A stretch of 64,000 nucleotides of DNA from Verrucomicrobiales bacterium (lineage in GTDB: Bacteria > Verrucomicrobiota > Verrucomicrobiia > Verrucomicrobiales > DEV007): positions 47,165 through 111,164 of the forward strand of contig JARGOP010000006.1 of assembly GCA_029233965.1 (NCBI GenBank). The letters are read 5' to 3'. How positions within the stretch are numbered: the stretch's first letter is position 1; every line of letters begins with the position of its first letter. Below are positions 17,796 to 23,141 of this stretch, in pieces. Both the position numbers and the translations under genes were made by a program. Under the pieces are notes generated by a model. It was not told the DNA's origin and searched no databases. It worked only from the letters and a program-made list of their open reading frames with translations.

Positions 17796-20246
17796 ATGGG
17801 TCAAAGACCGACAGAACTGCTCGCTCCGGCGGGGAACTGGGAATGCGCGCGTGCGGCGGTCGCCAACGGGGCCGACGCGATCTACTTCGGCATGCCCGTT
17901 TTCAACGCCCGGATCCGGGCCGATAATTTCACGCCGGAAGATCTCCCGGAGTTGATGACTTTTCTCCACGAGCACGGGGTCCGCGGGTTTGTCGCGTTCA
18001 ACGTTCTCATTTTCCCTTCCGAACTCGAAGCGGCCGCAGCGCAGTTGCGCCTTCTCAGCGAAGCGGGCGTGGATGCGATCATTGTGCAGGACCTCGGCCT
18101 CGCAACGATGGCCCGGGCGATGGTCCCTGATTTACACGTCCACGCTTCGACCCAGATGACGATCACCTCGCCCGAGGCGCTCGCGTTTGCCGACGAACTC
18201 TTCGATCTCGATCGGGCGGTCATTGCACGCGAGAATTCGATGCGGGAGATACGCCTTTTCCATGCGAATGAGCCGGATTCGGTCGAGTTGGAAACCTTTG
18301 TTCACGGAGCCCTCTGTGTCGCCTACTCAGGACAGTGCCTCACGAGCGAATCGCTCGGCCAGCGCAGTGCAAATCGCGGGGAATGCGCCCAGGCCTGCCG
18401 GATGCCCTACGAACTCGTCGTCGATGGAAAGACGAGAGACATGGGCGATCAGAAATATCTTCTCTCCCCGCAGGATCTTGCGGGGATTGATCAAATCCCG
18501 GAGCTGATCCGCCTCGGCGTCGTAAGTTTCAAGATCGAGGGCCGTCTCAAGACGCCGGAATACGTCGCTGCGGTGACACGTGCCTATCGGAAGGTGATCG
18601 ACGCTGCGCAGCGGGGAGAGGAAAAGGTTTCGACGCCGGAAGATCGCTACGAACTGGAAATGGCCTTTTCCCGCGGGCTCTCGACCGGCTGGCTCAACGG
18701 GATCGATAACAAGAAGCTCGTCCATGCCCGATTCGGGAAAAAGAGGGGAGCCTACGTGGGACACATCACCGGAGTGGGCGACGGCTGGGTCGAGGTGGAC
18801 GGAACCACGGCAATCAAGAAGGGTGACGGAGTCGTTTTCGATACCGGGGGAAATACGGATCGTGAGCAGGGCGGGCGGATTTATGAGGTCGCGAATCGCC
18901 GCCTCACCTTCCAGTGGGATCGGATCAAATTTGATCAACTTGCCGTCGGTGACCGGATCTGGAAAACGGACGATCCCGGCCTGAATGCCGAGCTGCAGAG
19001 CACCTGGAAGCGGGAGCATCTCCGGGGCCGCAAAAAGGGCCTGCATTGGAGGGTTTTTGCTGCCGTGGGAAAGCCAATCGTGTTGCGTGATGAGGCTCAC
19101 GGGATCGAAGTCGCTTCCGCGTTTTCATTGGAGGCTGCGGAGAAGCGACCCGTTTCGCAGGAGTATCTTGAAAACCAACTGGGTCGTCTCGGGAATACGG
19201 CCTACGAACTTGAGAGCCTGACGCTGGAGTTGGAGGGGGAGCCGATGTGTCCCGCGAGCGAACTGAACCGGATGCGCCGCGAACTCGTCGAGCAGCTTGA
19301 TCGCGAGCGGGATGAAGCCCCTGAAGAGCGCCGTTCTTCCGGGGTCACCGTGCGTGACATGTTGCCTGAAGTCGTCGAGTCGGCGCCGGGGAAAACTCCG
19401 GAACTGCGCGTCCTCTGCCGAACGGAGGAACAGGTCAATGCCGCGATTGAGAGCGGGGTCGCGAAACTCTATGTCGATCTCGAAGACGTCCGTCGTTACA
19501 AAAAGGTGGTAGAGCAGGTCCGCGTGGAGAGCCCTGACACCAGGCTGTTCCTCGCGACACCGCGCATTCAGAAGGCGGGGGAGACAGGTCTCTTTCGCGT
19601 CGTCGAAAAAGCGAAACCCGATGGAGTCCTCGTCCGAAATCTCGGAGGAGTGCAGCATTTCCGAAATCACCCGGAGTTGAAGATGGTCGGGGACTTTTCG
19701 CTCAACGTCGCCAACCCGATCAGTGCGGGACGATTGATGGATCAGGGTTTTGAAAACCTGACCATTTCCTACGACCTGAACATCGAGCAGGTTCTCGACC
19801 TCTTGCACGCCGCGCCACCGGATTGGTTCGAGATCACGCTTCATCAGCACATGCCGATGTTTCATATGGAGCACTGTGTCTTCTGCACCTTTCTCTCCGA
19901 AGGAACCGATGTGACCAACTGTGGACGCCCCTGCGACAAACACGAAGTCCAGCTCCGCGACCGGGTCGGGCAGTTGCATCCGCTGAAAGCCGACGTCGGC
20001 TGTCGGAACACGTTGTTCAACGGTCGTGCGCAGAGCGGGGCCCGGTTTTTTGAGCCTCTCCGAGGAGCCGGTCTCCGGATTTATCGTGTCGAATTGCTGA
20101 AAGAAGACGCCGCCGGATCGCTCAAGACGATTCAGGCCTACCAAAACCTCATTCGGAGCGAAAATGGCGGTCAGGAGCTGTGGTCAATGCTGCAGGTCGA
20201 TTCCCGGCTCGGCGTCGTCGAGGGCACGCTTGAGGCCGGATCATGA
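17796..20246 (+). CDS. U32 family peptidase-like protein (RlhA/YegQ type)
   Basis: An 816-residue cytoplasmic protein. The N-terminal TIM-barrel starts ELLAPAGNWECARAAVANGAD and leads to the U32 signature ETFVHGALCVAYSGQC with further cysteines in RGECAQACRMPY (about residues 168-205), which bind an Fe-S cluster in known members. The middle (about 350-500) matches the DUF3656 region, and a second barrel-like half (about 545-740) contains MFHMEHCVFCTF and NCGRPCD, a further cysteine group. RlhA, of similar domain order, is needed for hydroxylation of 23S rRNA C2501. That role is inferred here, and U32 proteins are probably not proteases in this subgroup. Confidence 0.9.
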   Translation: MGQRPTELLAPAGNWECARAAVANGADAIYFGMPVFNARIRADNFTPEDLPELMTFLHEHGVRGFVAFNVLIFPSELEAAAAQLRLLSEAGVDAIIVQDLGLATMARAMVPDLHVHASTQMTITSPEALAFADELFDLDRAVIARENSMREIRLFHANEPDSVELETFVHGALCVAYSGQCLTSESLGQRSANRGECAQACRMPYELVVDGKTRDMGDQKYLLSPQDLAGIDQIPELIRLGVVSFKIEGRLKTPEYVAAVTRAYRKVIDAAQRGEEKVSTPEDRYELEMAFSRGLSTGWLNGIDNKKLVHARFGKKRGAYVGHITGVGDGWVEVDGTTAIKKGDGVVFDTGGNTDREQGGRIYEVANRRLTFQWDRIKFDQLAVGDRIWKTDDPGLNAELQSTWKREHLRGRKKGLHWRVFAAVGKPIVLRDEAHGIEVASAFSLEAAEKRPVSQEYLENQLGRLGNTAYELESLTLELEGEPMCPASELNRMRRELVEQLDRERDEAPEERRSSGVTVRDMLPEVVESAPGKTPELRVLCRTEEQVNAAIESGVAKLYVDLEDVRRYKKVVEQVRVESPDTRLFLATPRIQKAGETGLFRVVEKAKPDGVLVRNLGGVQHFRNHPELKMVGDFSLNVANPISAGRLMDQGFENLTISYDLNIEQVLDLLHAAPPDWFEITLHQHMPMFHMEHCVFCTFLSEGTDVTNCGRPCDKHEVQLRDRVGQLHPLKADVGCRNTLFNGRAQSGARFFEPLRGAGLRIYRVELLKEDAAGSLKTIQAYQNLIRSENGGQELWSMLQVDSRLGVVEGTLEAGS

Positions 20247-20403
20247 TTCAGTGGAAAATTTCTGAGAATTCAGACAATCAATCCTGGAAAAAAAAACGCT
20301 TCGGTCGTTGCATAAGTGTTCGACTGTTGATGCCTGAGGCTTAAGGGTCTTCTCTTATCCTTCTGTCTTCGCAAAGACACGTTCCCCGAAAAGAAGATCG
20401 CAC

Positions 20404-21858
20404 ATGGGCGAGATACAAAATGTCATTATTGTTCCGGTGTTGGAATCCGATCTGGGTCTGATCAAGTCAGTGCTGCGTTATTGGGTTCACGAGTGCCCGC
20501 CTCTGGAGACCGGCTCAGAGGCGGTCTCGAAGCTGGATTTGATCTACGTTTTCAGCGGTTCGGAGAACGCGGGCGTGAAGGAGGCAATGGAGGCGATTCT
20601 CGACGAAAGTGAAGTCCGGAAACATTTCAGGAAAGTATTTGTTCATTTCGCGGGGGTTCCCCCTGAACTGGACTACTACCAGAGGAATACCAAAGGCCTG
20701 CCGCCGACCGCGAATGGATTTGCCTCGGGTCCCAATGAGGTCTTCTTCCACATGGCGACTGCTTTCGGGAACAGATATGAGTGCTCATTGTTGATGGAGC
20801 TCGATTGTCTGCCCATCCGGGGAAACTGGGCCGAGCTGCTGCAGGAGGAGATGAAAAAGAATCCTCAGGCCTGGGTGACCGGAAGCTGCTATCAAGGATG
20901 GTCGTGGCTTTCCCCGGGAATCAAAAATCACATCAACGGGAACGCGATTTACCGCTTCAGCGATCCTGATTTTCAAAAGTTCCTGAAAGAGGTTTGGAAA
21001 CCCGGGGTGAAGGAGCTTCAGCAGTGGGGGTATCCTGAACTGGCCTATGACTGCTTTCCTGCGCTTCTTGAGTCACTCTCGCGCGGGCCTCTCGTTCCCG
21101 GCGAATTGAGAGCGAAAGCTTCCATGGCCTTCGGGCGTTTCCATGAGAGCTATTTTGTTCTCAATCTTGGCGGATCCGAAGATGCGCGCTCCGATTACCG
21201 AAGCCTTGAGCTTTTAAAAAAGCAGAACCCGCAAACGATCATGTTTCACGCAGGTTGGTTGATGGACGAATTGCTTGAGCCTGCAGAAATGCTGAGACCG
21301 GAGCAGGGGAAATCTGCAAGCGTTGCTGAAAAGTGTCGTGAAGAGGAATTAACTCATTCGATAAAACACATCTACGCAAGTGAAGGGGTCTGGATATATG
21401 GAAACCGGTTTTCCTTCATGCGGAAAGAATCGGTCATCACATTGCACATCCTTTTGGACAAAAAGAAACTGCACAAAATGACCGTGAGAGTCGAGTCAAA
21501 CGAGAGGATTCCGATGATGGTAAGGAGTTGGAATGAAACGTTTTCGGTGGGGCTTAATTTTTTCAGTGCAATCGGAGCTATCCTCAAATATTGCGGATTG
21601 TTTCGCCTCTTCCATCTAACGGAGGTTCGTAAATATCTTCGGAACAGATTGAGCTGGATTGACTATTTCTCGCGAAATAGTGCCCTGAGTCTCGTGCGTA
21701 TCTCGATTGCACAATTGAGAGGTAGAAAAATTACTTCGGCCGAAAATGAAGTCTCTTTTTCGACAAAGCAGCTCAAAAAGTCGAACGGAGTTATAGTTAC
21801 CCTCTCATGTGACGGAGCATTAGTGGAAGGAACAATTCATGTACGGGTCGAAAACTGA
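20404..21858 (+). CDS. Putative glycosyltransferase-like protein
   Basis: A 484-residue protein without signal peptide. The first 270 residues have a GT-A-like look: strand NVIIVPVLESD, strand LDLIYVFSGS, an acidic motif LLMELDCLPIRGNW (near residue 132) at a DxD-like position, then WVTGSCYQGWSWLSPG and HINGNAIYRF. The last 150 residues are less typical, richer in Lys and Arg, and encoded by more AT-rich DNA (about 21330-21850). Its stop overlaps the start of a Wzm-like remnant by 20 bases. It was probably the last intact gene of a surface-polysaccharide cluster and may be of foreign origin. Enzyme activity is inferred, not shown. Confidence 0.5.
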   Translation: MGEIQNVIIVPVLESDLGLIKSVLRYWVHECPPLETGSEAVSKLDLIYVFSGSENAGVKEAMEAILDESEVRKHFRKVFVHFAGVPPELDYYQRNTKGLPPTANGFASGPNEVFFHMATAFGNRYECSLLMELDCLPIRGNWAELLQEEMKKNPQAWVTGSCYQGWSWLSPGIKNHINGNAIYRFSDPDFQKFLKEVWKPGVKELQQWGYPELAYDCFPALLESLSRGPLVPGELRAKASMAFGRFHESYFVLNLGGSEDARSDYRSLELLKKQNPQTIMFHAGWLMDELLEPAEMLRPEQGKSASVAEKCREEELTHSIKHIYASEGVWIYGNRFSFMRKESVITLHILLDKKKLHKMTVRVESNERIPMMVRSWNETFSVGLNFFSAIGAILKYCGLFRLFHLTEVRKYLRNRLSWIDYFSRNSALSLVRISIAQLRGRKITSAENEVSFSTKQLKKSNGVIVTLSCDGALVEGTIHVRVEN

Positions 21859-22042
21859 GAATACAGGATTCAGCTCGCTCGTCACTTCTGCAAACCGGGA
21901 GCTTGTTGAGTCTGTCCAGCGTATCCCCGTTGCGTGGCTCCTTGCGGTTCTCTCGATCAAGCATCGGTATGAACGGTCTCTTTTGGGACCTTTTTGGATC
22001 ACTTTTTCCCAGGCAGTCTACATCGTCGTTATCGCCTTTGGC
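21839..22042 (+). pseudogene. N-terminal remnant of an O-antigen ABC permease (Wzm-like)
   Basis: From the ATG at 21839 the frame encodes about 68 residues that match the start of polysaccharide-export permeases: LLAVLSIKHRYERSLLGPFW (the conserved R-Y-x-R-S-x-LGPFW box) and SQAVYIVVIAFGS, the first membrane helix. After FGS the homology stops abruptly and the frame runs on with non-family residues to 22252. Five further helices expected of Wzm are missing. The start overlaps the preceding glycosyltransferase-like gene. Confidence 0.7.
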
Positions 22043-22485
22043 TCCGAAAAGCGGGGCCACTTCACGGTATTCAGGAAGATGGAAACGGCTACGAAAACAT
22101 TCAGATCCTTTCCCGTTTGCTGGGTTATCCCAGGTCTGAGCTCGCTTCCATCGCCGAAGACGTCGTTTCGTTCTGTGATCTCGGAAGCGCTCTTGACCGT
22201 CCCGTTCGTACCTATTCAAACGGCATGCGCTTGCGACTCTGTTTTGGAGTGATTACGGCCTGGCCTGCTGACATCCTGCTGGTCGATGAGGTGATCGGGG
22301 TGGGAGACAACGATTTTAAGCAACGCGCGATCGAGCGGATGAAAGACTTTATTTTTCGTTCAGGGATCCTGATTCTCGCCTCCCATGATCAGGGCATTCT
22401 CAGTTCCTTTTGTAAGGAATCCATTCTGCTGGATAAGGGGGAAATCGTTGAACGCACCGTCCTCAAGGACCCGGATCCCGGCTAA
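22043..22485 (+). pseudogene. C-terminal remnant of a polysaccharide-export ATPase (Wzt-like)
   Basis: In a different frame from the Wzm piece, this stretch encodes the second half of a Wzt/TagH-type ATPase: GNGYENIQILSRLLGYP, RTYSNGMRLRLCFGV (signature), ADILLVDEVIGVGD (Walker B) and ILASHDQGIL (H-loop). Walker A and the whole first half are absent. An ATG at 21994 opens this frame, but its first 20 or so residues are out-of-phase permease DNA. The piece cannot bind ATP normally. Its last four bases overlap the stop of trpF on the other strand. Confidence 0.75.
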
Positions 22486-23141
22486 ACCGCTGCCGCTTCG
22501 ATAAACGCCCGCACCAACTCCAGGTCTTTGACACCGGGAGAACTTTCCACACCACTGGCGACATCAACGCCTGCGGGGCGGACCTGGCGAATCGCTTCAG
22601 TGACGTTCCCGGGCTTCAGTCCGCCCGCCAGAATGATTTGGCGGTCAGGCCATTTTTCAACTGCTTCGGCGCCGAGAGACCAATCCATCGTTTCTCCGCT
22701 GCCTCCGTATTCGGTCGGCGCGTAGGCGTCGAGGAGGAGGGTGATGGACTCATAGTCGGCAGCGGTTTCGAGCGTGGCCCGGTCTTTTACCCCCATCGCT
22801 TTGAAAACGGGTAAACCCTGTTTGGTCAGTGACCTGACCCTGTCAGCTGTCTCGTCTCCATGGAGTTGAATGAAATCGATTCCTCCGGACTCATAGATGG
22901 CGATGAGTTCATCATCGGTCGCGTTCACCGTCACGGCGACGCGCGGGACCGTGCCGGCGAGGTCGAGAAGCCAGGGAAGAGCCGCCTCGAGGGCCACGTA
23001 GCGCTTTGATTTCGGCCAGAAATTAATCCCGAGGGCATCAGCGCCGGCTTCAACAATCGCGGATGCCTGAGCACCGGTGGTGATTCCGCAAATTTTGACT
23101 GCACTTCGCCCGGGGGTTGTCGGGAAAAGGCGGTCGTTCAT
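22482..23141 (-). CDS. trpF: Phosphoribosylanthranilate isomerase
   Basis: Third step of tryptophan synthesis, converting N-(5-phosphoribosyl)anthranilate to CdRP. The 219-residue TIM barrel carries VKICGITTGAQA (catalytic Cys, near residue 18), INFWPKSKRYV, FIQLHGDE, LLLDAY (catalytic Asp), LAGGLKPGNV and the final phosphate-site segment GVDVASGVESSPGVKD. No other trp gene is nearby. The class V aminotransferase lies eight bases upstream on the same strand, so the two may be cotranscribed. Confidence 0.97.
   Translation of the reverse strand: MNDRLFPTTPGRSAVKICGITTGAQASAIVEAGADALGINFWPKSKRYVALEAALPWLLDLAGTVPRVAVTVNATDDELIAIYESGGIDFIQLHGDETADRVRSLTKQGLPVFKAMGVKDRATLETAADYESITLLLDAYAPTEYGGSGETMDWSLGAEAVEKWPDRQIILAGGLKPGNVTEAIRQVRPAGVDVASGVESSPGVKDLELVRAFIEAAAV

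Follow-up and report, generated by a model that had tools for sequence, protein, structure and literature searches.

An IS3-family end at the junction of truncated wzm and wzt genes in a Verrucomicrobiales genome

The locus under study lies in a window of 64,000 nucleotides, i.e., the whole stretch of DNA that was analysed, which is carried by a 115,927-bp contig (C27) of a 4.83-Mb genome assembly (151 contigs; 96% complete). From a gene for a U32-family peptidase to the convergent trpF gene, the window contains, in this order, a gene for a putative transferase of 484 amino acids, a truncated wzm gene, one end of an IS3-family insertion sequence (IS) and a truncated wzt gene (Table 1). The stop codons of wzt and trpF overlap by 4 bp.

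Table 1. Features of the interval from the U32 peptidase gene to trpF (positions are those of the window).
Feature	Position	Strand	Evidence
U32-family peptidase gene, left anchor	17796..20246	+	PF01136, E 7e-90; neighbour kept in most genus members
Intact 484-aa ORF, putative transferase, first gene of the cassette	20404..21858	+	Full-length homologue at the same place in G012
Truncated wzm, codons 1-66	21839..22036	+	NF050109, E 4e-8; profile 7-56/272
33-bp IS3-family end (OrfA-side terminal repeat)	22032..22064	-	33/33 identical to the IS end on C65
Truncated wzt, codons ~106 to stop	22066..22485	+	NF050108, E 2e-34; profile 102-234/244
trpF, right anchor, convergent	22482..23141	-	PF00697, E 7e-46; conserved neighbour

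The intact state of the cassette is found in two relatives from the same genus. In G012 (JARGPJ010000001.1, a Verrucomicrobiales MAG), the U32 peptidase gene is followed by an ORF of ~490 codons, wzm (273 aa), wzt (243 aa) and trpF; G038 shares this arrangement, its intact pair consisting of 266 (wzm) and 265 (wzt) codons. The pairs are located between the two anchor genes at 4541-6110 of L009 (G012) and 4536-6137 of L023 (G038), and Pfam finds the ABC2_membrane (PF01061, E 9e-11 and 2e-12) and ABC_tran domains in the intact genes of both genomes.

The wzm remnant of the window is 76% identical at the amino-acid level to residues 11-74 of G012 Wzm and retains the RYERSLLGPFW box and the beginning of the first membrane helix; it yielded no Pfam hits at all, and the ABC2_membrane domain, extending over ~200 residues, is not found in it. 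The wzt remnant, in which the NF050108 match spans 22066-22482, is 76% identical to residues 105-241 of G012 Wzt. It keeps the signature (YSNGMRLRL), Walker B (ADILLVDEV) and the H-loop (ASHD) but has lost Walker A (GHNGAGKS in G012), and the motif set of a working ATPase (Walker A, signature, Walker B and H-loop) is thus incomplete. Since they match the NF050109 and NF050108 profiles, we regard the two pieces as true partial copies of wzm and wzt, to the exclusion of chance resemblance. Each is free of stop codons in its own frame and keeps its coding character, but the two frames differ, resulting in ORFs of 137 and 163 amino acids. Neither remnant is predicted to be able to work as an exporter subunit, and the exporter at this locus would be dead, because the permease is without nearly all of its membrane helices and the ATPase is without Walker A. 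Both ORFs should be annotated as pseudogenes, and the intact gene upstream should not be taken to indicate that an export route is active here.

Scaled on G012, the loss comprises wzm codons 66-273, the stop codon, a 16-bp spacer and wzt codons 1-105, or ~958 bp; the missing DNA thus amounts to about 0.95-1.0 kb. When the entire assembly was searched with the intact Wzm and Wzt of G012, the missing parts were not found elsewhere; the matches were the two remnants, one diverged intact pair (on contig C141) and unrelated ATPases. A preliminary description of the window, made from its letters alone, had proposed a deletion scar with a loss of roughly 1 kb, and these results, with the intact pair at the same position in G012 and G038, agree with it; they also answer its reservation that the two pieces might be fused in every relative. 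The change of frame and the loss of Walker A and of most membrane helices, likewise described there, can be read directly from the sequence.

The junction itself is more complex than a direct fusion. The DNA alignment with intact G012 wzm ends at ~22035 and that with G012 wzt begins at 22066, and with four homologous pairs aligned, bases 22037-22064 can be assigned to neither gene. The two pieces are therefore not directly adjacent, as had been described, and the 68 wzm codons initially counted reduce to 66, the final two (FG) being IS sequence; it is this IS3-family end, which points to the probable cause of the break, that the preliminary description had missed. The tip of the element, at 22064, points into wzt, while its inner end adjoins wzm and overlaps it by a microhomology of 4-5 bp, TCGC(C). 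Inward from its tip, the element in the window reads TGAAGTGGCCCCGCTTTTCGGAGCCAAAGGCGA; it follows the C65 copy for all 33 bases and then passes into wzm, the bases immediately left of 22032 being wzm and not IS. The position of the tip is certain to within one base (AGAAG in the copies of the relative G004; TGAAG in the copies of the genome under study).

When the whole genome was queried with TTTGGCTCCGAAAAGCGGGGCC, five other sites were found, of which four had no more than one mismatch, while the reversed pattern, serving as a control, gave 0 matches in the genome. The C27 copy, the one in the window, is found with an E-value of 3.6e-9. A native origin of the junction bases from wzm or wzt was rejected, given that the same bases occur at five other places in the genome.

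The nature of the element is revealed by relatives. In G023, the IS end continues inward and an ORF begins about 80 bases inside the tip (MKRKRRHLTAEFKARIALEALKGEKTAAEIARENDIAPTQICEWKKQLEE); the copies in G023 and G016 lead into an OrfA (MKRKRRHLTAEFKARIALEAL...) with an HTH_Tnp_1 domain (E 2e-10). The OrfA of G016 has 105 amino acids; after it, a different frame encodes IEKNAPELSIRQQCKLLGVNRNRL, apparently the start of an IS3-family OrfB. The terminal sequence (TGAAGTGGCCCCG...), an OrfA with HTH_Tnp_1 and the OrfB-like start in a shifted frame (G016) are features shared with IS3-family elements, of which the window, in contrast, has only the 33-bp end, without a transposase. Searching with OrfA, we did not find the IS body in the binned assembly of the genome under study, where the full element was never seen. 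Such a gap is expected of an unbinned repeat, given that three of the copies (on C65, C81 and C125) are within 70 bases of a contig end. In the relatives G004 and G045, too, every copy found breaks off where its contig does. This placement is as expected for an element present in many copies, through which the assembly could not be continued.

Two other contigs of the genome carry short intergenic remnants without an IS body. On C151 (L050, 985-1020), two IS ends are joined through GCCA to form a near-palindrome of ~31 bp; on C124 (L048, 1084-1116), the same IS3-type end occurs as another such remnant. Loss of the IS body is therefore not confined to the wzm-wzt locus.

The break is very probably the outcome of two events, in which a copy of the IS3-family element was inserted in wzt and a deletion at a microhomology then removed the IS body along with the 3′ portion of wzm and the 5′ portion of wzt. 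The ancestral export cassette (putative transferase, wzm and wzt) would have been located between the U32 peptidase gene and trpF. The element would have landed at about codon 105 of wzt, with its OrfA end toward the 3′ half of the gene and its tip at what is now 22064. Later, a deletion would have fused wzm, at codon 66, with the IS end 33 bases from its tip by means of the 4-5 shared bases (TCGC/C). Along with the remainder of the IS, ~105 codons from the start of wzt and ~207 codons from the end of wzm would have been lost. We infer both the sequence of these events and the route via microhomology. On the wzm side of the join, neither a second IS end nor a target duplication is retained; the other IS end would have been lost in the deletion.

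The same pieces could also have been left by a deletion of ~1 kb in a single step, in the course of which ~28-33 bases were copied as filler from an IS end elsewhere, wzt never having carried an insertion. An identical donor is indeed present at C65, and the presence of merely 33 IS bases, without a second end or a target duplication, would suit such copying. However, the IS sequence stops at the tip of the element on the wzt side, as it does in a true insertion, whereas filler synthesis need not respect that limit, and the IS copy without a body at C151, joined end to end, also speaks against it. We consider filler copying unlikely.

Less probable still is an artefact of assembly (or an error in the consensus of a population), by which the middle of the locus was skipped and the DNA actually holds wzm, a full IS and wzt, or else the intact pair. 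The involvement of a multi-copy element that breaks contigs elsewhere in the genome would invite such an error. Nevertheless, contigs that end in the IS elsewhere extend 46-62 bases into the element before stopping, whereas here 33 bases are followed by clean wzm sequence; the 4-5 bases shared by wzm and the IS end at the join are far fewer than the usual k-mer overlap; no other contig carries the missing ~1 kb; and the join sits inside a contig of 115.9 kb.

Both remnants look as though they had been constrained for most of the time since the window genome and G012 split, and the break would be recent on that scale, because they show no excess of amino-acid changes: with G038 as the outgroup, 13 changes are unique to the window in the two remnants and 12 are unique to the intact G012 genes. 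In the remnants, the window differs from G012 at 179 bases, 118 of which occupy third codon positions. That the joined region might be translated into a short permease or ATPase that has acquired a new role has next to no probability: the pieces are indeed stop-free and coding in character, but recency accounts for their good state, the difference in frame precludes a fusion protein, Walker A and most helices are gone, and the same join occurs in none of the relatives examined. A functional fused protein was likewise rejected, given the differing frames and the lost key motifs.

We have surveyed the slot between the U32 peptidase gene and trpF in the window (20247-22481) and in L009, L023, L024, L025, L026 and L027. 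Where a single contig holds both anchors, the interval measures just 19-177 bp in most members of the genus. One of these is the sister genome, G006 (support 100/99), which has the slot without the cassette; in G015 and G001 the slot is occupied by a molybdopterin oxidoreductase gene and in G040 by a DUF1254/DUF1214 gene. The wzm-wzt cassette is thus patchily present across the genus. The remnants are as similar to their G012 counterparts (76-78% identity) as the U32 gene is to its own (78.5%), and for this reason the comparison favours, without proving it, an old shared cassette that was lost in G006 and is decaying in the window genome over separate gains. More tentatively, the gap may be a slot that has repeatedly gained and lost the transferase-wzm-wzt cassette within one genus, with the window genome caught half-way through an IS3-mediated loss, a wider reading that we hold to be possible rather than probable.

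Intact G012 Wzm and Wzt match the mycobacterial Wzm-Wzt (RfbD/RfbE) galactan exporter of the PDB 9qfx group over nearly their full length (E 9e-33 and 1e-52), and their best NCBIfam models are NF050109 and NF050108. They score, however, just 161 and 215 bits, against curated cut-offs of 380 and 400. As far as these scores can tell, the G012-type pair is not the galactan exporter itself, because they fall so far short of the NCBIfam equivalog cut-offs. As in systems of the NF050108/9qfx type, the 243-aa Wzt of G012 is without a C-terminal sugar-binding domain. The mycobacterial exporter (9qfx) carries a lipid-linked polysaccharide. In the window, both genes of the pair are truncated. Galactan biosynthesis in mycobacteria is treated in PMC10951656.

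The intact paralogous wzm-wzt pair on C141 (L010) lies beside gmd and a GDP-fucose synthase-like gene. It is of the same exporter superfamily, its Wzm having 37% and its Wzt 51% identity with the corresponding G012 proteins, but differs from the window pair in being intact, in its gene neighbourhood and in a Wzt frame of 600 amino acids with a long C-terminal extension. The preliminary description had allowed for another exporter, and such a pair is indeed present; it may remain as an exporter for other glycans.

What the locus displays is ordinary pseudogenisation with an unusually readable cause. That insertion sequences bring about the loss of surface-glycan genes is generally well known, and the interest of the present case is mainly that of a clean worked example: an export cassette broken with the involvement of a mobile element can be viewed at the level of single bases, with the intact state extant in relatives and an empty site in the sister genome.

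The gene upstream of wzm, here a putative transferase, had been described as glycosyltransferase-like and intact, and it is a complete ORF, whose 3′ end overlaps the start of wzm by 20 bp, as it does in G012. Its product shares 43-44% identity with the G012 homologue and has a counterpart of 495 amino acids in G038; a contig scan with the 484-aa protein returned only G012. No Pfam or NCBIfam family matched the protein, nor did any PDB sequence credibly, and its structure model (pLDDT 39.7) was too poor for a fold search. Three genomes have a protein of ~490 amino acids upstream of such a wzm-wzt pair, with the conserved motifs LMELDCLP and GNAIYR, and these proteins possibly constitute an undescribed glycosyltransferase family.
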